DNA from: a virus
Length of the DNA: 64,000 nt
Direction: 5' to 3' (one strand)
Virus record (IMG/VR): IMGVR_UViG_3300044641_007803
Span: 1 to 64,000 of that record
In this document: one piece after another, positions 14,069 through 43,054 of the stretch
Position numbering within the stretch: the stretch's first letter is position 1
How the letters are laid out: each line of letters opens with the position of its first letter
The notes under the pieces: generated by a model
Database searches by the model: none
The model's input: the letters and a program-made list of their open reading frames with translations, nothing else
Told to the model about the DNA's origin: nothing
Program-made: the position numbers and the translations under genes

Positions 14069-15544
14069 TTATGATTTAATGATTCCTGCTAACTTCTGCC
14101 ATCTAGCTACTTGCTCAGATACTTCTGATAAGATTTCTTTTGGTGCAGTTGTTTGTGCGTTCCCTGTTGCTTTTGAAGCAAAAGATCTGTGCTCTTTAAT
14201 TGTAGCTGGTTTAGTAACTACATTTTTAGAAACTGTTTCGAAAACTAATTTTACTTCTTTAACTGTCTCTGCTTTATCAAAAGCTGCGATAACGTTTACT
14301 TTTTGACCTTCAGATAAGTTGTTTGATTTGAATACTTTATTTACATAAAGTAATTTTGCATTTAAAAGGTTAACTTCTTGAAGTTGATTTCTTAAAATTT
14401 TAACTGCTTTTAAAGCTTCGTTTAATTCTTCAGATTCTTCAGATACTTGTGTTGACTTTGCTGCTGCTGAACCTACATCGGATAATTTATCTCCAATTTG
14501 TTTTCCTTTTTCACCGAAAACACCGTCTTTAGCCATTTGATGTATTTTAGCACCAATAGCGCTTAATCCTGTGATTCCTACTGCTCCAAAAACTCCTAAA
14601 AGCATTTGAGCTGTACTGTTTGTTAAGAATGGGAACATTTGAATAAGTTCGTAGATAATATCGATGTTTTCATCCATCTTATCTGACTCGTGATTCATCT
14701 CTTTCATATCTTTCATACCTTTCATACCTTCTTCAACTCCTTCTCTGTTTTGAGTAGCTTTAGCTGCTGCTCCTCCGGCTGCTTGTAATTTTTCAGCAAA
14801 AGATTTAGCTGCACCTCCGAATTTTCCTTCTAGGGCCATATCCATTACTTTAGCAGTAATTGCAGCAATTCCTGTAAGACCTGCTGCGCCAAGTGCTCCT
14901 ATAACTAATGATGCGGTTTGCATGGTTAAGAATGGAAACATTTCAACAAGTTGTTTAGCTCCTTCGATATACTCCGGTCCTATTTCGTTTAATTCACCTT
15001 CTTCCATTTTCTTTTTACTATTATCCATTTCGTCTAATTCGGCTAATAGTTCGTTAATATCGATCTCTTCTGAATCACCATCCATACTTACCATATCTTC
15101 TTCTCCTTCTGGAGCTTCTTCACCTGGTAACTCTTCTTCTGATTCGTCATGACCTACTTCTTGAGCAACGATGTCTCTGATAAGGTCTTTTAAATCTTCA
15201 ACAGACATGTCTTCAATTTCCAATTCCTCTTCTTCTCCTTCTTCGTTACCTTCTTCTTTTTCAGCTCCTTCTTCTTCTTCTGCTTCTTCCTCTTCTTCTT
15301 CTGCTTCAGATAGTCTGGCATCTTCTCCATCAACTTTTCCGTCTCCGTTTAAGTCTCTGTCGTTGTGCTCCATTCCGTATTCATCAATCTCATCCTCTTC
15401 CATTTCTTGTAGCTTTTGAGCAAGCATTTCTTTTAGGTGTGGAGTCAATGTTTCTTCTAAAGCTTCTTTAGCATTTGCAATTGCAGCTTCACGAATAGTT
15501 TTCGCTTCAGCAATAGCTTGCTTTAATAAATCTTTGTTTGACAT
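14069..15544 (-). CDS. Prohead scaffold/core protein, gp22-like, with duplicated hydrophobic module
   Basis: A 491-residue protein at the position of T4 gp22, directly before the capsid gene. It starts with helices (NKDLLKQAIAEAKTIREAAI), followed by a Ca-binding-type loop NDRDLNGDGKVDGEDA (about residues 61-76) and a very acidic Glu-rich region. Two homologous hydrophobic, Gly/Ala-rich modules follow (about 190-263 and 291-365), each with MFPFLT and then VIGALGAAGLTGIAAI or LLGVFGAVGITGLSAI and ending AAAK(A/S)TQ. The C-terminus is a helical gp22-like part ending in VARWQKLAGIIKS. T4 gp22 (269 residues) has no such modules. It is the main core scaffold by position; the modules may be membrane-active after proteolysis (inference). 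Confidence 0.8.
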   Translation of the reverse strand: MSNKDLLKQAIAEAKTIREAAIANAKEALEETLTPHLKEMLAQKLQEMEEDEIDEYGMEHNDRDLNGDGKVDGEDARLSEAEEEEEEAEEEEGAEKEEGNEEGEEEELEIEDMSVEDLKDLIRDIVAQEVGHDESEEELPGEEAPEGEEDMVSMDGDSEEIDINELLAELDEMDNSKKKMEEGELNEIGPEYIEGAKQLVEMFPFLTMQTASLVIGALGAAGLTGIAAITAKVMDMALEGKFGGAAKSFAEKLQAAGGAAAKATQNREGVEEGMKGMKDMKEMNHESDKMDENIDIIYELIQMFPFLTNSTAQMLLGVFGAVGITGLSAIGAKIHQMAKDGVFGEKGKQIGDKLSDVGSAAAKSTQVSEESEELNEALKAVKILRNQLQEVNLLNAKLLYVNKVFKSNNLSEGQKVNVIAAFDKAETVKEVKLVFETVSKNVVTKPATIKEHRSFASKATGNAQTTAPKEILSEVSEQVARWQKLAGIIKS

Positions 15545-15701: not shown

Positions 15702-15926
15702 TTATTTTAAAAGACTTGCTACGTAATCTAATATGTCTTGTTTTGCTTGAGGAATATCTTCTGGCTCTGTTGCTCGTCCGTTTTTCCACTCTTCCCAAGT
15801 TGATTGAAGCAACTCTATTGCTTGGTCAAAATTAGGTCCCATTACCTCTACATATCCTCCATTTTCTTTAACCATAGATTCTTTTAAGAACTTTCCTTGC
15901 CAGTTATGTATATTGAAATCGTTCAT
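15702..15926 (-). CDS. Small prohead-core-type protein
   Basis: A 74-residue protein between the protease and the scaffold genes, the place where T4 has its small core proteins gp67/gp68. It begins NDFNIHNWQGKFLKES, an amphipathic leader ending in a basic-Leu-Lys-Glu pattern like capsid-targeting sequences, and continues GGYVEVMGPNFDQAIELLQS. It overlaps the protease start by one base and is followed by a strong terminator. The core-protein role is inferred from position and leader. Confidence 0.65.
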   Translation of the reverse strand: MNDFNIHNWQGKFLKESMVKENGGYVEVMGPNFDQAIELLQSTWEEWKNGRATEPEDIPQAKQDILDYVASLLK

Positions 15927-16507
15927 TATGCTCTTAGTATATTGTTAATAATAGAATCCAATCTATCGTATTTTCCTACTGCTTGTTTTTGTTCATTTAA
16001 TGAAATTGGATTCATAAAAGCTCCTTGTGTAGAAGGATTAGAAACGAAATCCCAACATACTAATTCAAAGTCTGGTTGAACCATTAAAGTTCCTTCGTTT
16101 GTTTGTGTTACTGATCCTGTTCCTCTTGATGATATTCCTATTGTATGTCCTCCTCTTAGTATTTCTTTTACGATATTTCCTGAAGGTGTGTTTAGTAGTT
16201 CTACTTTACCCATTAAGTCATCTCCATCCCACCATAAGTCTTTTACAACGTGTGATGCATTTTTCAAAGATACAATTGCTGATTCTGGATGATCTAATTC
16301 TCCGTAAGCGTTTCCAACTTTAACGAAATTTTCTACATACTCTCTTACTTGATCTTCAAGTATTTCTCTTTTGTAAATTCTTCCGTTTTGGTTCTTAGCT
16401 CCTGCTCTTTGCATAATACCTGTTACCTCAAAAACACCTGGTTTGGTTTTTGATTCGGTAAGAAGTCCTTTGAAAGGAGTTACGTTTATTAATAATGGAT
16501 TGTTCAT
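15926..16507 (-). CDS. Prohead protease, T4 gp21-like
   Basis: A 193-residue serine protease of the gp21 (S80) family, close to T4 gp21 (212 residues). Visible catalytic elements are GELDHP (His73) and GISSRG (Ser126/127), with NGRIYKREIL between the N-terminal strand and the His loop and PDFELVCWDFVSNPS after the Ser. In T4 it enters the prohead, cleaves core and capsid proteins after Glu in (L/I)xE or (L/I)xxE sites, and degrades itself. Here it would mature the gp23-like and gp22-like proteins and is the natural processing enzyme for the leader-bearing proteins at 22-41 kb. Confidence 0.92.
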   Translation of the reverse strand: MNNPLLINVTPFKGLLTESKTKPGVFEVTGIMQRAGAKNQNGRIYKREILEDQVREYVENFVKVGNAYGELDHPESAIVSLKNASHVVKDLWWDGDDLMGKVELLNTPSGNIVKEILRGGHTIGISSRGTGSVTQTNEGTLMVQPDFELVCWDFVSNPSTQGAFMNPISLNEQKQAVGKYDRLDSIINNILRA

Positions 16508-17604
16508 TATATTAAATCTTTTAATGATTTTGATTCAAAAAGATTATCTAAAGCATCTCTAGTACCTTCAAAGCCAGGAATTTCTGGAGTTGCTTTTTGC
16601 AAAGCTCCTGCTTTTGCTCTGTCAATTAAAGATAGTAAATGTTTGTGTTTAATATCTTGTGTAGTAGATGCTTGTACTTTAGCTTGCTTGTGTAATCTTT
16701 CAAATTTAGCAGGGTCAGTTTCGTGCATAAGCATTAACTTAGCTACCATATTTTTATCTGCTTCTGTATCTGTAGCTTCGTCTAAGTCTCCGTCAATAAA
16801 AGGATCTGAGAAGTTTTCATCACCGTAGTCAATATCGTCTTCACCTCTTGTGCTGTTAAAGATGTGCTCTAATTCTGCTATATCGTCTACTGGTCCGTGC
16901 TCAGCTTCTACTGCTTGTACAAACTGTTCAAAGCTATCAGACTCTTGAGCTAATAAATAAACATCTCCCATTGCAGATTCGTCCATATCATCCTCTCCAT
17001 ACATTTCGTATACTTCCTCTTCTTTGTAACTTTCAACATCCATTACCTCTTCAGATAATACTTTTTTGATAAGTTTCTTAAAGCCTTCTTTTAATTCAGC
17101 TTTCTTCATACCGTTAAAAGTATCTACAGTATTCTTTGCTGTTGCTGGAGTCATTTGATCGTGTTGATCTACTTTTGGATTAACACCTGCTACTTGGTTT
17201 GTATAGAAGATTGAATCTTTTGCTAAATTTTTAGATACTTTTGCTAATGCTTTTGAATATTCTTCTGCTGTCGGTGTACCGAAAACTCCTGCTACCTCCA
17301 ACTCAACTCTAATTCCTCTAAGGATTTGTTCGTATGGATACTTATCCATTTCGTTAGTTGGTTTATATCTATAATCTGCTAATCCTTTCTTTGTTGCTTT
17401 TGGTTGTTTAGCTTCTTCAACTTTAGCCTCTTGGATCATTCCTTTGTTTTTAAGGATCTGAACTGCATCATCGTACCCGTTGAAGCGAGTAACTAGTTGT
17501 GGTTGTTGCATTCTAGCTTCAGCTAAGAAATGATCCTTAGAGAATTTCCCTTCTTGAATTGCATTATATTTTTCTTGTAGTGTTCTCATGTTATTTATTT
17601 TCAT
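16507..17604 (-). CDS. Head core-type protein with internal leader-like helix
   Basis: A 365-residue acidic protein between portal and protease genes. It starts INNMRTLQEKYNAIQEGKFS, then FLAEARMQQPQLVTRFNGYD, which I recall as conserved in T4-like marine phages. At about residues 170-188 there is KKLIKKVLSEEVMD, a copy of the short Lys/Leu/Glu leader found at the start of other proteins here, followed by a strongly acidic region. Several (L/I)xE and (L/I)xxE sites could be cut by the protease. It overlaps the protease gene and the 77-residue gene. It is probably an internal core protein that is processed in the head. Confidence 0.7.
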   Translation of the reverse strand: MKINNMRTLQEKYNAIQEGKFSKDHFLAEARMQQPQLVTRFNGYDDAVQILKNKGMIQEAKVEEAKQPKATKKGLADYRYKPTNEMDKYPYEQILRGIRVELEVAGVFGTPTAEEYSKALAKVSKNLAKDSIFYTNQVAGVNPKVDQHDQMTPATAKNTVDTFNGMKKAELKEGFKKLIKKVLSEEVMDVESYKEEEVYEMYGEDDMDESAMGDVYLLAQESDSFEQFVQAVEAEHGPVDDIAELEHIFNSTRGEDDIDYGDENFSDPFIDGDLDEATDTEADKNMVAKLMLMHETDPAKFERLHKQAKVQASTTQDIKHKHLLSLIDRAKAGALQKATPEIPGFEGTRDALDNLFESKSLKDLI

Positions 17605-22262: not shown

Positions 22263-23699
22263 TTAGCTAGCTACAATTATTATGTCAGCTACATCACTAT
22301 TATATAATTTTCCATCACCTTTTTTGTACGTTACCTTATCTCCAGAAATTGCTGTTATTCTACCCATTTCTTGATTTAACTGTTCTTGACTATTTCCGTA
22401 CGACATATTAGGTGCTATCATCATATTAACTTTTAACTCTTCAGGGTTTGGAGCTTTAAATCCTTGCATACTACCACGTAAGATTTCCTTTTGGGTATAT
22501 GTTCCATTTTCACTCAACATTCTAGAGCTTGCAGTTAATTTGTTTTCTGCTAAGAATTTTCTTAAGTCAAAAAATCCTTCTTGTAATGCTTCTACTTTTT
22601 CTGCTTTAGGAGCTGCAGGTGCTTTTTCTTTTTTGTTGAATTTCTTATCAAATGCTGCTTTTAACTTTTCTGCTGCTTTTTCTAACTTTGCAGCATCAGT
22701 AGCTAATTGCTTTAAGTCTTTTGGACTAATGTGTGCAGCATGCTCACTTTCTTCCATTTTCTTTGCTTTCATTCTTAATGCTTCAGCAATCTTTTTCATT
22801 TCCTGCATTTTATGCTCTTCTGCTACCTTATTTGTTCCGTGGTCAATGCTATTCATTAACTCATCGATTGTATTGTATTCAGGTATTACAGTTTCGTCAG
22901 CCATTTCATCTCCTTCTTCCATTTGATTTCCTTGATACTGATCTCTTCTATAATCTTCTTCGTCTGCAGCATCTGCTGGATTGAATGCATCTTCTCCTTC
23001 TTCTGGGTATCCCATGGCATCTTGTACCATTTCTACTAAACGTCTTTCTTTAGCAGTTAATTTTGTTTCTTTCATAATTGGTTTTTTATTTTGTGTTCCT
23101 TCTCTTTCCATTTCCATGTTATTTCTAAACATGTATAATAGGTGGCTTTCTAAAGTACTTTTCTCAGAACGAGTAGCCTCTGATCCTACTTCTTGCTCTA
23201 CTTGTTTGATAGCATCTTGGATTGTTTGAAGTGCTGTTGAATATCCTCTAATAGTACCTACTATTTGCTCTGCTTTTGCATTTACTGCTTTAGCGGCTGG
23301 TGTGTCGTATGAGTCTGAGTATCTTGCTTCGTCTAGTTTGTTTTCGTCTAACCCGTCTCCTAGCTCAGCGTTAATGTCTGCTTCAATAAAGTCAGCAATA
23401 TTAGATTGAATTTCATATTCATTTTGAATTTCTTCTGAACTTATAGGTTCTCCAGCTACATCTATTCCTACAAATTCTTCGTTACCGTCTGGGTCTATTA
23501 TTGCGTAAAAACAAGTATCCATTACACTAGAATCCTCCATAGAGTATATTTTGTGTCCATCTATAGTAGTCATATAAAACCCTCCTGTTCCTTCTTCATC
23601 GAAGTATTTGTAATCTTCTTGCTCTTCTTTTAAAAGTTGTGCGTTTTTTGTAAGTTTATTCTCTGTTAAGAATGTTCTTAAATTAAAATTATTTGCCAT
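22263..23699 (-). CDS. Leader-bearing head cargo polyprotein with a second internal leader
   Basis: A 478-residue acidic/helical protein. It starts NNFNLRTFLTENKLTKNAQL followed by LKEE, a member of the leader family shared with the genes at 33.1-37.9 kb. Around residues 372-396 a second copy appears, FFDLRKFLAENKLTASSRML then SE, preceded by EALQEG, a good (L)xE protease site. Between them is a coiled-coil, Lys/Glu/Ala-rich region; after the second leader is an 85-residue SH3/KOW-like part (MGRITAISGDKVTYKKGDGK). It looks like two cargo proteins fused in one chain that the prohead protease could separate. A late box lies 18 bases upstream. Confidence 0.75.
   Translation of the reverse strand: MANNFNLRTFLTENKLTKNAQLLKEEQEDYKYFDEEGTGGFYMTTIDGHKIYSMEDSSVMDTCFYAIIDPDGNEEFVGIDVAGEPISSEEIQNEYEIQSNIADFIEADINAELGDGLDENKLDEARYSDSYDTPAAKAVNAKAEQIVGTIRGYSTALQTIQDAIKQVEQEVGSEATRSEKSTLESHLLYMFRNNMEMEREGTQNKKPIMKETKLTAKERRLVEMVQDAMGYPEEGEDAFNPADAADEEDYRRDQYQGNQMEEGDEMADETVIPEYNTIDELMNSIDHGTNKVAEEHKMQEMKKIAEALRMKAKKMEESEHAAHISPKDLKQLATDAAKLEKAAEKLKAAFDKKFNKKEKAPAAPKAEKVEALQEGFFDLRKFLAENKLTASSRMLSENGTYTQKEILRGSMQGFKAPNPEELKVNMMIAPNMSYGNSQEQLNQEMGRITAISGDKVTYKKGDGKLYNSDVADIIIVAS
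22516..22590 (-). repeat. Internal copy of the FDLRKFLAENKLT leader module
   Basis: This minus-strand stretch encodes an internal copy of the leader that elsewhere stands at protein N-termini (23625-23699, 33510-33578, 36065-36136, 36787-36855, 37195-37260, 37857-37925). The preceding codons encode LQE, a likely cleavage site. Confidence 0.75.
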
Positions 23700-28291: not shown

Positions 28292-28873
28292 CTAATCGAT
28301 ATGGCTTTTTAAGTGTTTTAAATACTCTTGAAGATTTGTAGTCATTTGTTGCTTAAATTGAGAATCATTACCGTTCCAATCTTCTACATCCCCTTGTTCG
28401 GTAACAAAGGTATTTGTTGTCTCTAATGCATCCAATACCCATTGCTCTACATCTCTTGCAAAAGCTTTAAGACTTCCTTGCATCATATTCTTTTCATATG
28501 ATTCATATAGCCCTGCTTTTCTTAATTCTGCTTCATAATCAATTACGCAATCAAAACACATTTTATGTATCTTATACATTTTGTGACTAAGGTAGTAGTT
28601 CATACTCCCTTTACATTTTGGGCATGCTAATGGTATTTGTAAAGCTTTTTTTGCTGAGTCTAACTTTGTAATGTTCTGCCTTATTCCGCCTTTGATAGTC
28701 CAAGTTCTTCCGCTTTCTTCCCAAACATCTCCTTCTTTGTATGCTACTTGTGCTTTGGCATATCCAACACCATCTACTGTTTTACCACTAAAGTCTTTGT
28801 TTACTAGATTCCTAGCTCTATTAACATCTTTTGATTTGAATTCTTTTTTAAGTAAGCTCTCGCCCATAACCAA
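28292..28873 (-). CDS. Zinc-finger-type head-region protein
   Basis: A 193-residue protein. The central CPKCKGSMNYYLSHKMYKIH and KMCFDC give two CxxC pairs, a zinc ribbon. The N-terminal half (GKTVDGVGYAKAQVAYKEGD, VWEESGRTWTIKGGIRQNIT) is beta-rich; the C-terminal half is helical (QGSLKAFARDVEQWVLDALE). The start overlaps the HAD gene by 26 bases; MGESLLKKEF three codons in is an alternative start. I recall it as conserved in marine T4-like phages. The function is unknown; nucleic-acid binding is plausible. Confidence 0.62.
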   Translation of the reverse strand: MVMGESLLKKEFKSKDVNRARNLVNKDFSGKTVDGVGYAKAQVAYKEGDVWEESGRTWTIKGGIRQNITKLDSAKKALQIPLACPKCKGSMNYYLSHKMYKIHKMCFDCVIDYEAELRKAGLYESYEKNMMQGSLKAFARDVEQWVLDALETTNTFVTEQGDVEDWNGNDSQFKQQMTTNLQEYLKHLKSHID

Positions 28874-29435
28874 GTTGTTTTAGTTGTTGTATAACCGATG
28901 AAACGTCTCCATCTTTACATTCTATTGCTATTCCTCCCTTAGAAGCAAATGCAACTAGGTTGGAAGGTTTATCGTCTATTAATATAGAGTTTTCATTTGC
29001 AAAATCCGACTTAGCATCTCCAAACCTAAAGATTACTTCAGGAAGAGGTGATAGGTGATTTCTTACCCACAGTCTTTTTCCCAGTCTTGAAGTATCATCC
29101 TCTGATGGTGATGTTAGTAGTTTTGGTCCGTAAGGTTGTATGAAGTCCCACAGTACTTGTCCTTGTGGCATCCATTCCATATCTGACCAGAATTCTAGTC
29201 CAATATATTGATCAATAAATTTCCAAAACTCTTCATCTCCTTGTAATTTTTGAAAATGTTTAGGTCTTGTTACTTGAGCAATTATTGCTTTTGAATAATA
29301 CTTTGGACCTTCTTGTTGTAGTAGTGTAACAAACCTTTTTTCAAAGTCTGTTAATACTCCGTCCATATCACAGTATATCTGATACTTAGGTACGAAGTCT
29401 GATTCTTCTAATAATAAGTCTACTAAATTTCCCAT
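28848..29435 (-). CDS. HAD-superfamily phosphatase, 5'-nucleotidase-like, with short leader
   Basis: A 195-residue HAD hydrolase. Motif I is YCDMDGVLTDF (nucleophile Asp23 and acid Asp25), motif II lies in KLLTSPSEDD, and the later ILIDDKPSNLVAF carries the acidic motif III/IV. The cap and size match the 5'(3')-deoxyribonucleotidase group, which dephosphorylates nucleoside monophosphates. Unusually, the catalytic core is preceded by GNLVDLLLEESDFVPKY, a leader-like stretch with an LLEE site, so the enzyme may be packaged. Substrate uncertain. Confidence 0.75.
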   Translation of the reverse strand: MGNLVDLLLEESDFVPKYQIYCDMDGVLTDFEKRFVTLLQQEGPKYYSKAIIAQVTRPKHFQKLQGDEEFWKFIDQYIGLEFWSDMEWMPQGQVLWDFIQPYGPKLLTSPSEDDTSRLGKRLWVRNHLSPLPEVIFRFGDAKSDFANENSILIDDKPSNLVAFASKGGIAIECKDGDVSSVIQQLKQLGYGRELT

Positions 29436-33083: not shown

Positions 33084-33578
33084 TTATGCTTTACTTTCGT
33101 TTACTGAAAAGAAACTAGGGTCTGCTTTTAGGTTTGAATCTTTTTGCCAGATTTCAAACATAAAGTCACCAAAGTACACTTCTAATTTACAAGTAAGACC
33201 TTTTGTATATTCCTCAAAATCTTCATCCTCTCCCATCAATTCTCCTGTTCCTGGATTAATGTCATCGCTAAAGTTATATAGTACTTCCTCGTACTCATCT
33301 TGGTCTGGATCTTCCTCTAGTCTTTGTAATCTTTCTTGTTCTAGTATCTTTGCAAATTTACCACCTAACATAATTATAGGGTGATCTCCTTGTATTGTTA
33401 GTCCTGATATCATTATTGCTCTTTCAGAAGGTACTGCTGTGATTGGTTTAGTTAAGTCTATATCTGCTTTTCTGAAAGCCTGCTCTACTGTTTCTCCTTC
33501 ATATTCCTCTTTTAGTAGTTTTGAATTAGTAGTTAATTTATTCTCTACTAAGAACTTTTTTAAATCAAAGTTTTCCAT
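33084..33578 (-). CDS. Head cargo protein with FDLKKFLVENKLT leader
   Basis: A 164-residue acidic protein. Residues 1-25 are the leader ENFDLKKFLVENKLTTNSK then LLKEE, an ideal (L)xxE site. The mature part (TVEQAFRKADIDLTKPITAV, RAIMISGLTIQGDHPIIMLG, LTCKLEVYFGDFMFEIWQKD) is beta-rich and globular with no enzyme motif. It has both an early-type promoter (17 bases from -10 to ATG) and, farther upstream, a late-type box. It begins the transcript that continues into the nucleotidyltransferase genes. Confidence 0.7.
   Translation of the reverse strand: MENFDLKKFLVENKLTTNSKLLKEEYEGETVEQAFRKADIDLTKPITAVPSERAIMISGLTIQGDHPIIMLGGKFAKILEQERLQRLEEDPDQDEYEEVLYNFSDDINPGTGELMGEDEDFEEYTKGLTCKLEVYFGDFMFEIWQKDSNLKADPSFFSVNESKA
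33510..33578 (-). repeat. Leader module FDLKKFLVENKLT (DNA repeat copy)
   Basis: The first ~23 codons of this gene are nearly identical in DNA to those at 36065-36136, 36787-36855, 37195-37260 and 37857-37925; the plus strand shares TTATTCTCTACTAAGAA then a T-rich stretch. The synonymous sites are also conserved, which suggests recent duplication or gene conversion. Confidence 0.8.
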
Positions 33579-33594
33579 ATTATTTCTATTTGCC

Positions 33595-33625
33595 TAAAGA
33601 TACACATAATATTTATACTATGCAA
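33595..33625 (-). promoter_or_regulatory. Early-type promoter TTG-N20-TATCTTTA
   Basis: The minus strand has TTG (33623-33625), exactly 20 bases, then TATCTTTA (33595-33602), 17 bases before the ATG at 33578. It has the same spacing and -10 as promoters at 60-63.6 kb. Confidence 0.75.
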
Positions 33626-33637
33626 CTATTATATTAA

Positions 33638-33644
33638 ATAAATA
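33638..33644 (-). promoter_or_regulatory. Putative late promoter box (TATTTAT)
   Basis: The minus strand reads GTACTATTTATTTAATATAAT, 60 bases before the ATG at 33578, just upstream of the early-type promoter. The gene may be read in both phases. Confidence 0.45.
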
Positions 33645-33647
33645 GTA

Positions 33648-34430
33648 CTAAAGTTTGATAGTAGTTGGATATGATGTGAACTTTGGTTCTGTTGTTGGAT
33701 GCTCAAGCTCATATAATTTATAGATCAACTTGAATAATTCAAAGTTCTTTTCTATATCGTCAATCACTTTCAACTCCCATCCTTTACCCTGAATCTTCTT
33801 ACCGCTCTTATCTTCTCCTCGAGTAGCTGCTTTTAACCAAAGGATTGCTGTTCTATCAATTTTAATTCCTTTTGTTTCTTCAATTGATTTAGCATAAGCT
33901 GCTAATTGTAAGTCGTATGATTTATGAAGACTGTTAGATGTTTTAAAATCAATAAGCCAAACCTCATCATTCATCTTTACTACTATATCGGCTGTTCCAG
34001 CATACTTGTGTGTGTCTGAGTAAGTAAATTCTTCTGTAAATATTAGTTCAGGTTTTGCTGCTGCCCAAAACTCTTTGAACTTTATAATCATTCCCCATAC
34101 TAATTCATTGTATCGAGCATTGCCGTAATCATCCATCCATTGGATTTCTTTACCTTCTAATAGCTCTTCGATTGCATTATGAACTTGAGTACCTTCATCT
34201 CCAGCTTTTCTCATTATAATGTCCGAGTTATGTCCTACATCTTTAATCCAATTTTCAAAGAACTTATTCTTTGGCATGTATTGTAAGATTGAAGTAACTG
34301 AAGGGTAGTATACTCCTTCTGATCGTTGGTAAACTCTTCTGTCTAAGAAGTTAATTTGTTTAAGTTCAGGTTGAAAATCCAACCTCTTCTTAGCGTGTTC
34401 TGACAAAACATTCTGTCCTTTTTGTATCAT
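33648..34430 (-). CDS. PD-(D/E)XK exonuclease, RecB/Cas4-like
   Basis: A 260-residue nuclease. Motifs in order: EGTQVHNAIEELLEG (His84), FTEEFTYSDTHKYAGTADIV (Glu133/134, Asp148), WLIDFKTSNS (Asp161-x-Lys163) and YDLQLAAYAKSIEE (Gln175/Tyr179), the RecB-type PD-(D/E)XK set. Such phage proteins act as 5'-3' or single-strand exonucleases in replication and recombination. It starts one base after the primase gene's stop and shares the primase's early-type promoter, so it is a replication gene placed within the late cargo island. No Cys cluster for an Fe-S centre is visible. Confidence 0.85.
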   Translation of the reverse strand: MIQKGQNVLSEHAKKRLDFQPELKQINFLDRRVYQRSEGVYYPSVTSILQYMPKNKFFENWIKDVGHNSDIIMRKAGDEGTQVHNAIEELLEGKEIQWMDDYGNARYNELVWGMIIKFKEFWAAAKPELIFTEEFTYSDTHKYAGTADIVVKMNDEVWLIDFKTSNSLHKSYDLQLAAYAKSIEETKGIKIDRTAILWLKAATRGEDKSGKKIQGKGWELKVIDDIEKNFELFKLIYKLYELEHPTTEPKFTSYPTTIKL

Positions 34431-34431
34431 A

Positions 34432-35352
34432 TTATGATAGTTTGTAGCGGAGTAACTTTCCTAAGTCCATTTCCTCTGCTCGTTGTACGTGATGAGTGAA
34501 ATTTACAAATCCCATCTCACTTGGATCTTTATCCTGCATATCTATTAGATATACCTTTTTTCCCATATTCAGAAACTGCTCTACATATTGCAAAGCTTTT
34601 TTTAGTGCATCCCTGTCAAGGGCTATATAGATATCTTCAACAGTACTTGATACTATTTTCTTTATCAGCGCTTTTGATAAAGACTTTCCTAGTATTGGTA
34701 CTGCATTTCTTTTTACTGCTATTGCATCAAACACTCCTTCAACTAATATAATTGGTTGGGACCAGTTGATTAAATTCTCAAATCCTATTATGTCTTTAGA
34801 GCACTCTGGATTTCTATATTTATGGTATGCGTCCTCAAATGTTCTTGCTACGAAGAAGTTTAACTGATTGTTTTCTCCATAAGATGGAATAATAATTCTT
34901 CCTGTGTATTGTCCTGAGGTGCAGTATCCTATATTGTATTTTAAGAAGTCTCTGTCTGTGAAACCTCTTTTATACAAGTAGCTTCTTACTTTATTTGCTA
35001 TAATGGAGGTGGTTGTTGCTTCGTATAACGATTGAAACTCTTTTGGTAGTTCTACTGTAGATGTAGGTGCATATCCTACCTCATCTCCTTTTCTTACATA
35101 CTTTAGTATTTCGTATGCTTGTTCTGCAGGTACCTGTAATTGTTTTAGTAGTGACTTTATTGTACGTCCTTTGAATCCACATACCCAGCATTCAAATGGA
35201 TTTTGTCCATTTTCATCTGTGTGAAGATTTACTTCTAGCTTTGGTTTATGGTGATTACATTTAGGACAATTAAATGCATAGTTTTCTCTTGCCCTTTTGT
35301 GGGATTTTCCTAATACATTCTCTATAAAACCTAATAGTATATTACTACTCAT
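34432..35352 (-). CDS. DNA primase, T4 gp61/DnaG-like
   Basis: A 306-residue primase. The zinc-binding domain has CPKCNHH (Cys29, Cys32) and CWVCGFKGRTIKSLL (Cys55, Cys58). The catalytic Toprim domain has ILVEGVFDAIAVKRN (Glu205) and IYIALDRDALKKALQ (Asp246, Asp248), then KKVYLIDMQDKDPSE. Size and layout fit T4 gp61-type primases (342 residues). It would make the RNA primers for lagging-strand synthesis. It has a TTG-N20-TATCTTAT promoter, unlike the surrounding late genes, and its helicase partner is not in the window. Confidence 0.9.
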   Translation of the reverse strand: MSSNILLGFIENVLGKSHKRARENYAFNCPKCNHHKPKLEVNLHTDENGQNPFECWVCGFKGRTIKSLLKQLQVPAEQAYEILKYVRKGDEVGYAPTSTVELPKEFQSLYEATTTSIIANKVRSYLYKRGFTDRDFLKYNIGYCTSGQYTGRIIIPSYGENNQLNFFVARTFEDAYHKYRNPECSKDIIGFENLINWSQPIILVEGVFDAIAVKRNAVPILGKSLSKALIKKIVSSTVEDIYIALDRDALKKALQYVEQFLNMGKKVYLIDMQDKDPSEMGFVNFTHHVQRAEEMDLGKLLRYKLS

Positions 35353-35376
35353 ACTTGTTCATAACTGGTTGACATT

Positions 35377-35407
35377 ATAAGATACAAAAAAAGACTTGAA
35401 TAAACAA
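35377..35407 (-). promoter_or_regulatory. Early-type promoter TTG-N20-TATCTTAT, overlapping a terminator
   Basis: The minus strand has TTG (35405-35407), 20 bases, TATCTTAT (35377-35384), 25 bases before the primase ATG. The spacer consists of the right half of a terminator hairpin and its T run. Confidence 0.7.
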
Positions 35408-35412
35408 GCCTT
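35386..35412 (-). terminator. Terminator embedded in the primase promoter
   Basis: The minus strand has AAGGCTTG, loop TTTATT, CAAGTCTT (with one mismatch, 35391-35412) and TTTTTTT. It would end the transcript of the 35435-36136 gene while its sequence doubles as the -35/-10 spacer of the next promoter. Confidence 0.65.
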
Positions 35413-35434
35413 TCTTTAATTATTTTGTACTATA

Positions 35435-36136
35435 TTATCGGCCTGTAAATGGCTTTCCTCCTATTTTAACACTACCTCCTGGTTTAGTACTTGCTGGACC
35501 TGGTTCCATCGGACCTGTATTTGATCCTACGTCAGGGCTTCCCCCTACCTTTAATCCTACTTTAATCTCCTTGGATGCTGTAGCAAGTGCTGCTGCTGCT
35601 TTTAGTGGTTGAATTACTTTACTAACTTCACTTGCTGGTATTTTATACATAGTTGAAGATTGTCCTTCATAAGAATCTTTATACTTTGCTAGTGTCTTAA
35701 GGACATTGTTTAGTTCTGCTTTTTGATCTTGAGAATCCCACAGTACATCAATTGTAATGTATTTAAAGTCATCGTCCATACTCACTGCAACTCCTATCGA
35801 GTGGCCAGCTTCTTTTACTGAACCCCAGTTTAGTGACTCATGTCTATCATCCGTAGTGTAGCTTATAAAGCTTAATAAACGTCCTTTATCTCCCTGTAAG
35901 GCAGCCTTAACTGCTTTCCAAGCAGGAATAGTTCTTTGATCATCGAACTTATCAGGGTCTTGTGAATCATCTCCGTCATCAACACCATCTCCTTGGTCAT
36001 CATCTGCATCGTCAAAATCTGCGTCGTATTGATCAAAGTCACCTCCTGATAGTACGTCAAAATCTTCTAGAAGTCTAGAGTTACTTGTTAATTTATTCTC
36101 TACTAAGAATTTTTTTAAGTCAAAATTATTTTTCAT
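35435..36136 (-). CDS. Head cargo protein with FDLKKFLVENKLT leader
   Basis: A 233-residue protein. The leader is KNNFDLKKFLVENKLTSNSR then LLED. It is followed by a very acidic linker of Asp/Gly (residues about 25-65), then a globular part (KAVKAALQGDKGRLLSFISY, VAVSMDDDFKYITIDVLW, YKIPASEVSKVIQPLKAAAA) and a Gly/Pro-rich tail ending KIGGKPFTGR. No enzyme motif. It is the last of a tandem series of four genes with the same leader and is followed by a terminator. Confidence 0.7.
   Translation of the reverse strand: MKNNFDLKKFLVENKLTSNSRLLEDFDVLSGGDFDQYDADFDDADDDQGDGVDDGDDSQDPDKFDDQRTIPAWKAVKAALQGDKGRLLSFISYTTDDRHESLNWGSVKEAGHSIGVAVSMDDDFKYITIDVLWDSQDQKAELNNVLKTLAKYKDSYEGQSSTMYKIPASEVSKVIQPLKAAAALATASKEIKVGLKVGGSPDVGSNTGPMEPGPASTKPGGSVKIGGKPFTGR
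36065..36136 (-). repeat. Leader module FDLKKFLVENKLT (DNA repeat copy)
   Basis: Copy of the leader DNA that starts four consecutive genes (35435-37925); almost base-identical to 36787-36855 and 37857-37925. Confidence 0.8.
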
Positions 36137-36147
36137 ATCTTATTTAA

Positions 36148-36855
36148 TTATAGTGTTTGTGTATTTTCCTCTTCTAGTAACATTGTGCCTATTTTTGCTA
36201 CAACCATTCCAAAGAACAATACATATGCTCCGTATATGTATAATTTTTTCATTGTTCTAGATAGTCCTGGCATTGTTCCTATCTTTCTTTCGATTGTCTG
36301 TAGGGTTGGTTTTGCATCAGTTACCAATTCTGTTGTAACTGCTATTCCTCTACTTTTAAAAAATCTATATAAATCAAAATTAGACTTATCTCTCATCTCT
36401 CCTTCAAAGTCTATTGGAAAAATTACATTGTCTGCCAGTTTTTGTAAGTATGCCTGATATTGTTGGTCATCTAATTTATCTTCCTCTTCTTGCGATAACC
36501 ACAGATCAGCAGACGTATCTACATACTTTATCCCATACTGTACCTTATCATCATCTTTATCTTTTCTTTCTAATAAGTTTGTATAACCTATAACTCTATA
36601 CTCCTTTACTACTGATGGGCCTGGTTTATATGCTGCAGCTTGTGATTTAACAAAGTTTACTAAATCCGCTGGTAATACTTTTGTAAATAGGGATGATAGT
36701 GCATTTCCTGTTAATTTGTTTATTTGTTTAGCAAAGCCTATTGCTTTGTCTTTAATCCAAGATAAAATTCCCTCATCTATAGTTGATTCCTGTCTTGAAT
36801 TGGATGTTAGTTTATTCTCTACTAAGAATTTTTTTAAATCAAAATTGTTTTCCAT
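36148..36855 (-). CDS. Leader-bearing membrane protein (head cargo candidate)
   Basis: A 235-residue protein. Leader ENNFDLKKFLVENKLTSNSR is followed by QESTIDEGIL. Then come a helical part (SWIKDKAIGFAKQINKLTGN), an acidic middle (DLWLSQEEEDKLDDQQYQAY) and, near the C-terminus (about 214-232), one hydrophobic segment LYIYGAYVLFFGMVVAKIGT flanked by Lys, then an acidic LLEEENTQTL tail. A capsid-type leader on a single-pass membrane protein is unexpected: membrane-bound delivery on infection is one explanation. Confidence 0.7.
   Translation of the reverse strand: MENNFDLKKFLVENKLTSNSRQESTIDEGILSWIKDKAIGFAKQINKLTGNALSSLFTKVLPADLVNFVKSQAAAYKPGPSVVKEYRVIGYTNLLERKDKDDDKVQYGIKYVDTSADLWLSQEEEDKLDDQQYQAYLQKLADNVIFPIDFEGEMRDKSNFDLYRFFKSRGIAVTTELVTDAKPTLQTIERKIGTMPGLSRTMKKLYIYGAYVLFFGMVVAKIGTMLLEEENTQTL
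36787..36855 (-). repeat. Leader module FDLKKFLVENKLT (DNA repeat copy)
   Basis: Second copy of the leader DNA in the tandem series, nearly identical to those in the adjacent genes including synonymous positions. Confidence 0.8.
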
Positions 36856-36879
36856 TCCTATTTTATTTTTACTACAAGG

Positions 36880-37260
36880 TTACACTGTTCCGTGAAAATC
36901 GGGAGCTGCTATAGTGCTTCGTGTTAATCTATATGAGTCTATATTGTTATTTTCTCTATCTAATAACATTATCCCGTCTCCTATTTTCATTGGCTTTGGT
37001 GCAATTTTTATGAAAGATTCAAAATCCTCTTGTCTAGGTTCTGTTTTAAAGAATATTTCATATTCCGGTTTATCTGCATACATGTATACCATTCTAAAGT
37101 TATCTCCCGGAGGTATAGGTTCTCCTGTGTATGGTATTGGTTTTAATTCTCTAAGTTCATTCTCTGCTACCTGTCTTTGCTCTATTTCTAGAAGGTTTTT
37201 TGAATTACTAGTCAATTTATTCTCTACTAAGAATTTTTTTAAGTCAAACGTATTTTCCAT
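36880..37260 (-). CDS. Head cargo protein with FDLKKFLVENKLT leader
   Basis: A 126-residue protein. Leader ENTFDLKKFLVENKLTSNSK is followed by NLLEIEQ. The mature part of about 100 residues (LKPIPYTGEPIPPGDNFRMV, YMYADKPEYEIFFKTEPRQE, DGIMLLDRENNNIDSYRLTR) is beta-rich with no recognised motif. It ends 2 bases before the gene at 37263 begins to read and probably shares its transcript. Confidence 0.68.
   Translation of the reverse strand: MENTFDLKKFLVENKLTSNSKNLLEIEQRQVAENELRELKPIPYTGEPIPPGDNFRMVYMYADKPEYEIFFKTEPRQEDFESFIKIAPKPMKIGDGIMLLDRENNNIDSYRLTRSTIAAPDFHGTV
37195..37260 (-). repeat. Leader module FDLKKFLVENKLT (DNA repeat copy)
   Basis: Third copy of the leader DNA in the tandem series, with Thr replacing the second Asn near the start. 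Confidence 0.78.
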
Positions 37261-37262
37261 TA

Positions 37263-37925
37263 CTATGCTGGTGTTAATTTTTTTGCTAGTGTTGTTACCT
37301 CTTCAGGTGTAAATATAGAACGATATTTCTTTATTAACTTTATTATTGCCGGTGACATTGAAGCTCCTAAATAAGATGCTGTAGCTGTAACTGGTGCTGC
37401 TTTGGTTGCTGCTATGAGCGGTGTACCTGTTGTAAATGTTACTCCTACTAGCATTGCTGTGTATAGTCCTATGGATACTTTATATAGTAAAGATGTTTTA
37501 TCGTTTACATCTTGACCTTTAAATTTTTCTGGGAGTAATCCTAGTAGTAATCCTCCTATTCCTTCTAGGTACTGTTCTTTTAAATTGTCTCCCCATTTTA
37601 CAAGAGCATCTCCTACTATAGTTCCATCTGCATCTTTGTCTTGAAAAATATAAGAAATTCCATTTACTGCATTCCCTAGTATTTTTATTAGAGATGGAGC
37701 GGTTAGAATTGTTCCTAGTAAAAGAGATTCATCTAAAGTGTTCCCTGATTCTACAGGTTTAGCGTTAGCAGCTGCTTGTTGAAGAATAGCTAACCCATTA
37801 TTTAACCCTTGCTGTACATCGGAACCTGTTATTTGTTCTGATTCAGAATCTTCCTCCTGTAGTCTAGAGTTGTGTGTTAGTTTATTCTCTACTAAGAATT
37901 TTTTTAAATCAAAATTATTTTCCAC
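37263..37925 (-). CDS. Leader-bearing multi-pass membrane protein (head cargo candidate)
   Basis: A 220-residue protein. Leader ENNFDLKKFLVENKLTHNSR then LQEED. Hydrophobic segments follow: LLLGTILTAPSLIKILGNAV (about 69-88), YLEGIGGLLLGLLPEKF (about 118-134), VSIGLYTAMLVGVTFTTGTP (about 150-170) and an Ala-rich stretch AATKAAPVTATASYLGASMS. The C-terminus is basic (IIKLIKKYRSIF). Gly/Ala-rich membrane character resembles the modules in the scaffold protein. One-base overlap with the kinase-like gene. Probable membrane-active packaged protein; role unproven. Confidence 0.7.
   Translation of the reverse strand: MENNFDLKKFLVENKLTHNSRLQEEDSESEQITGSDVQQGLNNGLAILQQAAANAKPVESGNTLDESLLLGTILTAPSLIKILGNAVNGISYIFQDKDADGTIVGDALVKWGDNLKEQYLEGIGGLLLGLLPEKFKGQDVNDKTSLLYKVSIGLYTAMLVGVTFTTGTPLIAATKAAPVTATASYLGASMSPAIIKLIKKYRSIFTPEEVTTLAKKLTPA
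37857..37925 (-). repeat. Leader module FDLKKFLVENKLT (DNA repeat copy)
   Basis: Fourth copy of the leader DNA in the tandem series, almost identical in sequence to 36787-36855. Confidence 0.8.
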
Positions 37926-38368
37926 TATACGTCTATTACTTTTATATTACCGTAATACCTATCTTGCATTATGTTGTCCATTTTAATTGAACCTCCTGGT
38001 CCTTCTAAGTCTGGGTATATTCCTAACATATCTGCTTCTTCCATTATATCATCAATTGGAACATCTTTCTCAGACCCTGTAAAAGGTTCTAGATTATCCA
38101 TTGTAATGATTCCTAGTTTTGGATTTCTAACCTCTACATCGTATATGTATACGAAGTACTTAGTCTTTTGTCCTTTTATTTGTTGTGCATCTTCTAATTC
38201 TTCTGAATCAGTAGTCACTTTTTTTACTCTATTTCCTACTAAAAATACTGCTCCATAATCTCCTTCTCCTAAATATTCTCCTCCTTGATCAACTATATCG
38301 TTTACAAGTTCTTGATATTCTTGGGTTGGTTCTAAGACCTCTCTTATTATTTTATAGAGACTGATCAT
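37925..38368 (-). CDS. Minimal kinase-like protein with leader
   Basis: A 147-residue protein. It begins ISLYKIIREVLEPTQEY, a leader of the second class. Residues 33-42 (LGEGDYGAVF) look like a protein-kinase Gly loop; Lys49/Lys50 in RVKKVT is the ATP-binding Lys candidate and Glu56-Glu59 the alpha-C partner; ITMDNLEPF (88-96) resembles a hinge. MDNIMQD (130-136) resembles the catalytic-loop Asn and the chain ends at IKVIDV, where the DFG Asp would be. There is no HRD Asp and almost no C-lobe. It may be a pseudo-kinase or minimal kinase-fold protein. Confidence 0.6.
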   Translation of the reverse strand: MISLYKIIREVLEPTQEYQELVNDIVDQGGEYLGEGDYGAVFLVGNRVKKVTTDSEELEDAQQIKGQKTKYFVYIYDVEVRNPKLGIITMDNLEPFTGSEKDVPIDDIMEEADMLGIYPDLEGPGGSIKMDNIMQDRYYGNIKVIDV

Positions 38369-38374
38369 TTATTC

Positions 38375-38854
38375 CTAGGTTATGTCCATTTCATATGAAC
38401 CTGCTTGAATACCTTTTGCTTTTAAAGCATCTACAATTTTGTATACTTCTGGATCGGTATAATCAGCTCTTTGTGGAAGATCTAACCCTGTAAGACTGTT
38501 TACAATTTGGTTTGCTTCTTCGTAGTTAGATATTTTTTTATTGTCTACATTTATTGAGTAGAATCTTTGGTTTGGAAAAGTATAGCTAATATCAAGTCTT
38601 TGTATATTAGAAGCTTCTTCGTACATAGGCTTTTCCCCTCTAGTAATTCTAGCTACATTATCTGGATTAGCCTTGTCTAAGATCGCATGACCTCTTTCAG
38701 CATCTCCTTCGTACTCTTCTTCATCTGTTCCTTTAGCAACTTTAGTTAAAATTTGCATAAATTCATCAGAAGTTCCTCCTTTGGTTTTTCCTAAGTATTT
38801 TGAATACCCTTGAAGTTCCTCTTTTATTAATTTTACTAGTTGTGATTTTTTCAT
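38375..38854 (-). CDS. Leader-bearing protein, unknown function
   Basis: A 159-residue protein. Residues 1-15, KKSQLVKLIKEELQGY, are a clear leader of the second class with a LIKEE site. The mature part is acidic, then beta/alpha (NIQRLDISYTFPNQRFYSIN, VDNKKISNYEEANQIVNSLT, EVYKIVDALKAKGIQAGSYE). No family recognised. It is 6 bases before the kinase-like gene and 10 bases after the 38865-39440 gene. Confidence 0.65.
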   Translation of the reverse strand: MKKSQLVKLIKEELQGYSKYLGKTKGGTSDEFMQILTKVAKGTDEEEYEGDAERGHAILDKANPDNVARITRGEKPMYEEASNIQRLDISYTFPNQRFYSINVDNKKISNYEEANQIVNSLTGLDLPQRADYTDPEVYKIVDALKAKGIQAGSYEMDIT

Positions 38855-38864
38855 TATATATGTA

Positions 38865-39440
38865 TTAGATTAATGCTTTGATAGCTGGGTATGCGTTTAG
38901 TATTGCTTCGTCTGCTTTTGCTACTGTTTTTAAAGAAGCTAATGCTCCTTGGAACCAGTCTGCTTTTGATAAACCACTAACTGCTTGTGCTCCGTATCCT
39001 GCTGCCATACTTGCAATAACAATTGCGTAGATAGCTTTGGTTGTTGTTTCTAATGTATTTGGATCTTTTATAAAGAATCCTAACACTCTTTTAATTGGAC
39101 TTTGAAAAGCTTTCTCATTATCATGTGCCCAATGGTGTATCTTTTCTGCAAAGTCTTCTCCTTTTTTCCAGTTAAGTCTTTTCATTAATTTAGCAGCCAT
39201 TTTAGAGATGAATCCTATAAGTGCATTTCCTGTTAATACTCCTACAATTATAGTTGTTACAATTGCTTCATTTAACTGACCTTCGTTCTGTTGTTTTTTA
39301 TTTTTTAATTCAGACCCTAACGCTGTTGCAATACCGTTAGCAGTTGCCATTAAGTCTGTATCAAACTGTGCTTCTTCTGGTCCGTTATCCTGTATATTAA
39401 GTTCTTCTTTTATTAACTGTACTAGTTCCGATCTCTTCAT
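38865..39440 (-). CDS. Leader-bearing membrane protein (head cargo candidate)
   Basis: A 191-residue protein. Leader KRSELVQLIKEELNIQDN with a LIKEE site. After an acidic linker there are hydrophobic segments AIVTTIIVGVLTGNALIGFI (about 59-78) and AIYAIVIASMAAGYGAQAVS (about 139-158), separated by a basic/amphipathic middle (KLMKRLNWKKGEDFAEKIHH). The membrane protein plus capsid leader combination repeats that of 36148 and 37263. Role in membrane passage or pore formation is possible but unproven. Confidence 0.7.
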   Translation of the reverse strand: MKRSELVQLIKEELNIQDNGPEEAQFDTDLMATANGIATALGSELKNKKQQNEGQLNEAIVTTIIVGVLTGNALIGFISKMAAKLMKRLNWKKGEDFAEKIHHWAHDNEKAFQSPIKRVLGFFIKDPNTLETTTKAIYAIVIASMAAGYGAQAVSGLSKADWFQGALASLKTVAKADEAILNAYPAIKALI

Positions 39441-41563: not shown

Positions 41564-43054
41564 TTAGAATAATGCATTCCAAATTGTTCCATCATAGTAA
41601 TACAATTTACTAGCTCCTGCAGATCCTGATGCTATAATCATTCCCTCTGTTGGTGTTGGTGTTGTCGTTCTTACTGCTAACTGTAAAATATCTTTTACTA
41701 TTAACGAACCCGTTACCTGGAATGTGCTTCCTGATGCAAATACTAGGTTTGATCTTGTACTATTATTAGTTCCGTTTCCAATTATAAAAGCAGACTGTGC
41801 TGATGATGATATATTGTACTGTCCTTGTACGTGTTGGTATGATCCTGATGCTACTGTGCCTAGTCCTTCTGTATGGGAAGCAACTCCTAATGCTCTAGTG
41901 CTACCTCCTTCTGCATGTGAATAGTTGCCTATTGCTTGAGAACCTACTCCTTCAGCATGGGATGCTTCTCCTGTTGATATTGTATTAAACCCCTCTGCAT
42001 GTGAGTCAGATCCTGATGCAAATGTACCATTTCCTTCAGCGTGTGAAACATCTCCGCTTGCTTGTGTATTGTATCCTTCTGCATGTGTGTAATTTCCTGA
42101 TGCTATTGTATCATACCCTTCTGCATGTGAGTAATCTCCTGATGCTGTTGTAAAGTACCCTTCTGCATGTGAGTAAGAGCCTGAAGCTATTGTGGAAGAC
42201 CCTTCTGCATGTGAAAAGTCTCCTGATGCTGTTGTAAAATACCCTTCTGCATGTGCTCCGCCTCCGCTTGCTAATGTTTGTTGTCCTTCTGAATGTGCGT
42301 ATGCAGAACTTGCTATTGTAAGGTATCCTTCAGCATGTGCTGAATTTCCTGATGCTGTACTACCAAAACCTTCTGAGTGAGCATACAGTCCTGAAGATAG
42401 TGTTTGTCTTCCTTCAGCATGTGAATATGATCCTTCTGCTACTGAATCTGCTTCAGCATGAGAGTGGTTACCTATTGCTATACTTCCATATCCTTCAGCA
42501 TGAGAATATGATCCTGATGCAATGGTGTTTTCTCCTTCTGCATGTGAGTAAGAAGCTGATGCCACTGTGTTTTTTCCTTCTGTATGAGAGTAGTCCCCTA
42601 TTGCTGTTGTTGCAAATCCTTCTGAGTGAGAAAAATCTCCAGATGCTATTGTATAGTATCCTTCAGCATGAGAACCTGTTTTTGTTGCTTGAGTGTTCTG
42701 TCCTTCTGCATGTGAGTAAAGCCCTGTTGCAGTAGTTGATAATCCTTCTCCATGTGAGAATCTATTATTAGGTGCAGAAATACTCCCACTTCCATTAATT
42801 AAAGATCCTGATATTTGGATTTGATTTGTTATTGTACTTACTCCTGCACTTGCAGTCCAATTTGTTGTTATTGGAATAGAGAAAGACATACTAGCTGGTG
42901 TATTTATCGTACTTCCGCTTTCTGCACTTCCTGTAGTAAATAGTGTTATTGTTCCGCTTGAGTACGATGCTGAGTAGAAGAATGAAGAAAAGTTTTCATC
43001 CAACTGTTCAAATGTCAGTGCTGACCCTGTTACTGTTCTTAATGTAATTGCCAT
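41564..43054 (-). CDS. Tail fibre with ~22 YadA-head-like SHAEG repeats
   Basis: A 496-residue trimeric fibre. Residues about 100-415 are about 22 repeats of 14 residues, consensus SHAEGxxTxASGxY, the pattern of left-handed parallel beta-roll heads in YadA-type trimeric adhesins. The repeats end with the module ISSSAQSAFIIGNGTNNSTR and FASGSTFQVTGSL, which the fibre at 4282-5907 also carries, and a C-terminal KLYYYDGTIWNALF cap. The N-terminus (AITLRTVTGSALTFEQLDEN) is a fibre-attachment type. It is probably a long fibre whose length depends on repeat number. Confidence 0.85.
   Translation of the reverse strand: MAITLRTVTGSALTFEQLDENFSSFFYSASYSSGTITLFTTGSAESGSTINTPASMSFSIPITTNWTASAGVSTITNQIQISGSLINGSGSISAPNNRFSHGEGLSTTATGLYSHAEGQNTQATKTGSHAEGYYTIASGDFSHSEGFATTAIGDYSHTEGKNTVASASYSHAEGENTIASGSYSHAEGYGSIAIGNHSHAEADSVAEGSYSHAEGRQTLSSGLYAHSEGFGSTASGNSAHAEGYLTIASSAYAHSEGQQTLASGGGAHAEGYFTTASGDFSHAEGSSTIASGSYSHAEGYFTTASGDYSHAEGYDTIASGNYTHAEGYNTQASGDVSHAEGNGTFASGSDSHAEGFNTISTGEASHAEGVGSQAIGNYSHAEGGSTRALGVASHTEGLGTVASGSYQHVQGQYNISSSAQSAFIIGNGTNNSTRSNLVFASGSTFQVTGSLIVKDILQLAVRTTTPTPTEGMIIASGSAGASKLYYYDGTIWNALF
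41870..42760 (-). repeat. 42-base coding repeat array (SHAEG)
   Basis: About 22 units of 42 bases encoding the 14-residue SHAEG repeat. The plus strand shows the recurrent CC(T/C)TC(T/A)GCATG(T/A)GA motif at this spacing. Units differ enough to avoid exact identity, but neighbouring ones such as 42120-42160 and 42205-42250 are near-identical. Confidence 0.85.

Follow-up and report, generated by a model that had tools for sequence, protein, structure and literature searches.

In phage T4, a short N-terminal propeptide common to otherwise unrelated proteins, the capsid-targeting sequence (CTS), is carried by IPI, IPII, IPIII and Alt (PMC9026906, PMC12373910). Residues 4 and 7 of the CTS drive targeting and residues 8 and 10 processing (PMC9026906), and the T4 internal proteins worked out so far are anti-restriction factors (PMC12373910). 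Head-packaged proteins with N-terminal propeptides that are removed by the prohead protease are likewise known from phages SPN3US and phiKZ; these propeptides are mostly longer than 100 residues and are shared by two paralogues only, and the N-termini of SPN3US gp53 and gp54 are identical (PMC5694885).

The leader described here was analysed in a 64,000-nucleotide stretch of viral DNA (the window), which makes up almost the whole of a viral record of 64,156 bases (IMG/VR IMGVR_UViG_3300044641_007803). As in the T4 CTS system, a short putative propeptide stands at the N-termini of unrelated, variable accessory proteins, ends in a gp21-type site of the form (L/I)xE, and occurs together with an S77 protease (gp21) in the same phage. 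The T4 genes ipII and ipIII share MKTYQEFIAEA, ipI has MKTFKEFTS, and the spacing h-x-x-F-(I/L)-x-E is shared with the leader, in which FDLKKFLVE has a hydrophobic residue, F, L and E at matching positions; only this hydrophobic/E spacing agrees, and no sequence homology was demonstrable. The leader differs from the T4 CTS in being about twice as long, in having two possible sites, in the host group, in exchanging with other leader classes, in occurring within fusion proteins and in having one class that matches a scaffold tail. At least 71 cargo clusters in the sample read carry it, compared with some 10 internal proteins known from T-even phages, and in contrast to the SPN3US and phiKZ propeptides it is short and stands on dozens of unrelated proteins. 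Four copies were found in a cultured phage from the Baltic Sea, Flavobacterium phage vB_FspM_immuto (MW353175), where the leader is unannotated; immuto and the window have the same gene order around the terminase, portal, S77 protease, gp22-like scaffold and gp23. A literature search on the leader string found no mention of it in the papers covered; no virion proteomics was found, and a paper on Baltic Flavobacterium phages does not mention immuto.

Leader copies in the window

Seven copies, all on the - strand, were located in six genes of unrelated content. The leader comprises 20-25 residues with the pattern F-D/N-L-K/R-K-F-L-x-E-N-K-L-T-x-N-S-R/K-L-L-x-E, and the first bases of the F codons lie at 23687, 22571 (interior), 33569, 36124, 36843, 37248 and 37913. 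When the 26-residue leader was searched against the record, E-values ranged from 1.6e-11 to 3.1e-7, far beyond chance. The copies are as follows (↓ marks the predicted cut).

37854-37925 (-), leader of gene 37263-37925, GTG start: VENNFDLKKFLVENKLTHNSRLQE↓E, site LQE
37186-37260 (-), leader of gene 36880-37260: MENTFDLKKFLVENKLTSNSKNLLE↓I, site LLE
36772-36855 (-), leader of gene 36148-36855, atypical: MENNFDLKKFLVENKLTSNSRQESTIDE↓G, site displaced 3 residues
36065-36136 (-), leader of gene 35435-36136: MKNNFDLKKFLVENKLTSNSRLLE↓D, site LLE
33507-33578 (-), leader of gene 33084-33578: MENFDLKKFLVENKLTTNSKLLKE↓E, site LLKE
23625-23699 (-), N-terminal leader of gene 22263-23699 (compare a family of 24 and immuto_194): MANNFNLRTFLTENKLTKNAQLLKE↓E
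22509-22586 (-), interior leader of gene 22263-23699, flanked by two sites: LQE↓GF FDLRKFLAENKLTASSRMLSE↓N

Pairwise comparison of the window cargos with the leader removed gave no match at E<0.9, so the initial annotation, which had described seven near-copies in six otherwise unrelated genes, stands on this point. It had given the ending as LLEE, LKEE or LQEE and had likened it to gp21-type sites. The site type holds for six of the seven copies, where it ends the leader at a fixed position, but the listed endings were too narrow: besides LLKE↓E (33084 and 22263) and LQE↓E (37263), LLE↓D (35435), LLE↓I (36880) and MLSE↓N (interior) occur, and gene 36148 has no site at the normal position, only IDE↓G three residues further on. 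The description of the DNA copies as nearly identical including synonymous sites was overstated. The five copies at 33-38 kb are 87% identical with 76% codon agreement at shared residues, and all seven are 81% identical with 73% codon agreement; for codon agreement, approximately 0.51 is expected from codon usage alone (L078, which has four of these copies).

Identity between the copies drops to background just 5' of the start codon and just past the Glu, which indicates that the repeated unit is the leader itself and not a promoter. A repeat that includes a promoter was considered and rejected, since about 30 bases upstream no identity above background is left.

The N-terminal leader of gene 22263-23699 is a sub-variant belonging to a core gene conserved beside the terminase. 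The immuto genes 194 and 195 are adjacent, separately tagged genes that overlap by 1 base, whereas the window gene matches their fusion. Some related fusions retain the MEN start of the second leader. By this comparison the interior leader is a relic of fusion with the neighbouring tagged gene (immuto_195). Of 13 fusion cases, nearly all have an LQE, LAE or LKE site immediately ahead of the interior leader, while the tail of the unfused immuto_194, KKEKKEDK, is without a site; with a site at the junction, the protease could cut the fusion back into two proteins.

Predicted cut site and limit of conservation

Leader statistics were taken from 119 non-redundant leaders of viral contigs, among the matches listed. 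In these F, L, F/Y, L, E, N, K, L and T are nearly invariant. The Glu of [LIMV]xE falls at position 19 or 20 past the F in 109 of the 119, and the stricter [LI]xE is at the fixed place in 99; the background for [LIMV]xE is 9-18% in downstream windows (about 10%), and the maximum in 1000 shuffles was 34. Conservation stops exactly at this Glu, with none immediately beyond. An alignment of one protein per cargo cluster (71, among the matches listed) likewise reads MxNFDLKKFLVENKLTxNSxxLxE and then nothing conserved. A further Glu, at position 8, is present in 118 of the 119 and gives FLxE, the same form as FIAE of T4; this Glu may mark a second cut or belong to a docking motif.

The expected processing enzyme and the major capsid protein are encoded at the following positions.

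15926-16507 (-), gp21-type prohead protease (Peptidase_S77): Pfam 4.8e-35, PHROG head maturation protease 2.6e-52
12409-14043 (-), gp23 major capsid protein: PHROG 3.1e-70, with a propeptide end ILENQAKQIVSE↓ that resembles the leaders

The protease assignment of the initial annotation is thus borne out. In 13 gp23 homologues of these phages the propeptide ends in QAKQ[IL]V[SAI]E, a site of the same type as in the leaders, which by analogy with T4 would be the gp23 cut site.

Occurrence and link to the S77 protease

When viral contigs were searched with a fully degenerate DNA version of the leader, at least 174 copies were found in at least 118 stretches, in front of at least 71 unrelated cargo clusters. 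The leader, which had been proposed as a reusable tag for a large protein set, is not confined to the window. Among 84,980 bacterial and archaeal species genomes the leader occurred on one contig only; this contig carries an S77 protease and a terminase-like gene and probably represents phage DNA placed in a metagenome bin. With tblastn against 50,697 phage records only four immuto records matched, and no T-even phage was among the matches. Large relatives have 1-5 recognisable copies, and the seven per 64 kb of the window are the highest count seen. A search of the phage collection for close DNA relatives of the window returned none.

Among the matches listed, the S77 protease was found in 18 of 41 leader records and was not found in 23, most of them short fragments; it was present in 10 of 13 records longer than 34 kb and in 3 of 3 longer than 80 kb. 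Conversely, 16 of 17 gp21-anchored loci of at least 18 kb have a leader within 10 kb, and tagged genes directly adjoin gp21 in L055 and L082. Judged from sequence, the leader is restricted to T4-like phages with a gp21 (S77) protease, the cultured immuto included.

Codon identity between leaders on unrelated cargo was 0.756 within contigs (0.525 expected from codon usage) and 0.633 between contigs (0.488 expected), and no label permutation came up to the observed 0.592 (highest permuted value 0.516). The greater likeness within contigs points to recent copying or to homogenisation inside each phage lineage, the two alternatives that had been offered for the window copies and that this result covers jointly.

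Cargo proteins and the putative prohead-core gene

The cargos are mostly ORFans and are patchily distributed. For the tagged proteins of the window, no convincing match was obtained with PHROG or Pfam. None of 71 cargo representatives, among the matches listed, matches a tail, replication or lysis family, and the only clear family among them is the HD domain, found with an FDLKKFL-type leader at L066:364-954 (-) and L080:3731-4312; this protein is a candidate injected nucleotide hydrolase. That the cargos are mostly membrane proteins was rejected, membrane segments being predicted in 5 of the 71 clusters (matches listed). In L040 (5769-8343) four consecutive genes are tagged, and the relationship of three of them to the 37263 protein suggests that tagged cargo was duplicated locally. 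Further features of the window are listed below.

16507-17604 (-), putative prohead-core gene: domains of its homologues are tagged stand-alone proteins in other phages
15702-15926 (-), small cargo with a GGYVEVMGP domain and another leader, MNDFNIHNWQGKFLKES: a relative in L014 has an FNLKKYL leader
37925-38368 (-), cargo with a small protein-kinase-like fold (predicted structure): leader MISLYKIIREVLE
38865-39440 (-), cargo with a class B leader, MKRSELVQLIKEEL: orthologues have an FDLKKFL leader (e.g. L012, L226) or class C
38375-38854 (-), further gene with a class B leader, MKKSQLVKLIKEEL

The core gene is putatively assigned by its location, with portal on one side and gp21 on the other, and by an N-terminus rich in LxE. 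In L055 the core gene product has 740 residues, of which 435-589 share 71% identity with the L124 cargo, and the VNE site at the junction is conserved (SVNE↓GMTVVGHT in L124, DVNE↓DLTVVGHT in the L055 core gene). In the window, immuto and L014 the GGYVE domain forms a protein of its own; in L082, L084 and L087 it lies within the core gene.

The structure of the 147-residue 37925-38368 protein was predicted at pLDDT 88, the first 12 residues being below 50, and Foldseek matched the model to kinases with probability 1.00 and TM-scores of about 0.5. The family is conserved in 17 sequences. Activity is uncertain, because the window protein has SIKMDN in place of the relatives' DIRPDN and so is without the usual catalytic Asp; the product is possibly an injected kinase or pseudokinase. 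The 38865-39440 cargo was predicted as all-helical at low confidence (pLDDT 63).

Two other observations concern genes of the window. The deoxynucleotidase-like gene 28848-29435 (-) has an immuto counterpart (109856-110455) that begins leader-like (LADLLLEE) before the enzyme domain. The large genes 4282-5907 and 41564-43054 (-) both match phrog_25468 (function unknown), the second with four stretches, and possibly encode tail-fibre-like repeats.

Leader exchange and scaffold likeness

Orthologues of the 38865-39440 cargo were compared at 40 loci, where at least 4 leader classes occur on this one cargo family. Their starts are of the MKRSELVQLIKEEL class, the full FDLKKFLVENKLT, short forms such as FDLRKYLAEGRLYEE, and RWQQLAGIITE or RMQRLAGLLTE. 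On the cargo tree (25 rows) 8 changes of leader class were counted, the least possible being 4. L070 and L019 have cargos of 87% identity behind different leaders, and the difference ends exactly at LKE↓E. That unrelated leaders swap on one cargo is most simply explained if they do the same job. The L250 orthologue has an inserted peptide, CWDGYEQIGMKEKDGKQVPNCVP, in its N-terminal region, possibly another mobile module.

One leader class resembles the gp22-like scaffold protein.

14072-14104 (-), C-terminal tail RWQKLAGIIKS of scaffold-like gp22 (14069-15544): nearly the same as leader class C, RMQKLAGIITE

The tail ILSEVSEQVxRWQKLAGIIK is found in about 40 distinct gp22 sequences, that of the window included, and ILSE often precedes the class C leader as well. 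Other proteins with a gp22-tail-like N-terminal leader are immuto 25061 and 111675 and those in L114, L119, L220, L230 and L246. The likeness suggests that the class C leader docks by mimicking a scaffold segment; it is seen for class C and not for FDLKKFL itself.

Several leader classes have the spacing h-x-x-h-h-x-E in common. In immuto, 21 of 239 genes have it in the first 18 residues (shuffle mean 7.4, maximum 19), and 14 of the 21 are among the 29 genes 176-204, which include the head cassette (Fisher p = 4e-10); since the pattern was picked after the leaders had been seen, this is supporting evidence only.

Discussion

The leader is very probably a removable capsid-targeting propeptide that would dock to the scaffold, be cleaved after the Glu by the gp21-type protease, and leave its cargo to be retained in the head and ejected with the DNA. 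The initial annotation had reached the same reading by analogy with T4. It is now supported by the fixed site at which conservation ends, the co-occurrence with S77 and the near-absence from cellular genomes, and also by leader exchange, cargo within the prohead-core gene, the scaffold-tail likeness and cargos that match no tail, replication or lysis family. Docking to gp22, cleavage, packaging and injection are inferred. The leader, probably a short amphipathic helix (h-x-x-h-h-x-E), would dock the tagged protein on the gp22-based scaffold core during prohead assembly; the protease would then cut past the Glu of (L/I/M)-(L/I)-x-E, possibly also past the earlier FLxE, and the freed cargo would remain in the head until ejected. 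That the leader alone sends cargo into the head is suggested indirectly, by leader exchange and by cargo within the prohead-core gene. The leader would be copied between genes as a unit, from start codon to cut-site Glu, so that any protein could become head cargo.

The same propeptide could instead serve proteins that are mainly structural or of the core, like T4 gp67, gp68 and IPIII, and that shape the head and are not injected. In its favour, the tagged family with the widest distribution (22263-type) is a conserved neighbour of the terminase gene, the prohead-core gene contains some of the cargo domains, and T4 IPIII has a part in assembling the head (PMC9026906). This is nevertheless unlikely, though it deserves consideration, as the at least 71 unrelated, patchy and mostly ORFan cargos, the HD-domain protein included, fit accessory injected proteins better, and the T4 proteins Ip1-3 are injected and counteract restriction (PMC12373910).

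A signal for secretion, or for some other compartment such as tail or membrane, would agree with the membrane segments predicted in five clusters, but is very improbable: the hydrophobic core of a Sec or lipoprotein signal peptide was not found in the leader (best 12-residue hydropathy -0.08), the site is LxE and not of signal-peptidase type, tagged genes adjoin gp21, and matches to tail families were absent among the cargos. We give almost no credence to a sequence kept mainly at the DNA or RNA level, for translation control or as a recombination hotspot with a peptide that has no targeting role, for although the raised within-contig codon identity and mild conservation about 18 bases upstream would agree with it, residues are fixed between contigs while codons vary, conservation ends at the protease-site Glu, interior copies retain the peptide without a start codon, and sequence-unrelated leaders replace the FDLKKFL leader on the same cargo.

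As a capsid-targeting propeptide the leader is, by its sequence properties, a new family of a known functional kind; what is new is the scale, the exchange, the fusion and the scaffold-tail likeness. A wider proposal, to which we give slightly less than an even chance, is that the interchangeable leaders form a loading code that mimics scaffold segments, one class being close to a copy of the gp22 C-terminal tail to which a cut site has been added. From sequence alone, this code would then reveal every protein that an uncultured phage packages in its head and injects, and most of these would probably be host-takeover or anti-defence proteins not yet known.

If the capsid-targeting reading is true, DNA alone would list the probable head-carried, injected proteins of many uncultured Flavobacterium-phage-like viruses. 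Such a cargo set would far exceed that of T4, would fall almost entirely outside known families, and could be tested in a cultured phage. How a targeting tag may recognise the core is suggested, in a concrete and testable form, by the similarity of one leader class to the scaffold tail.
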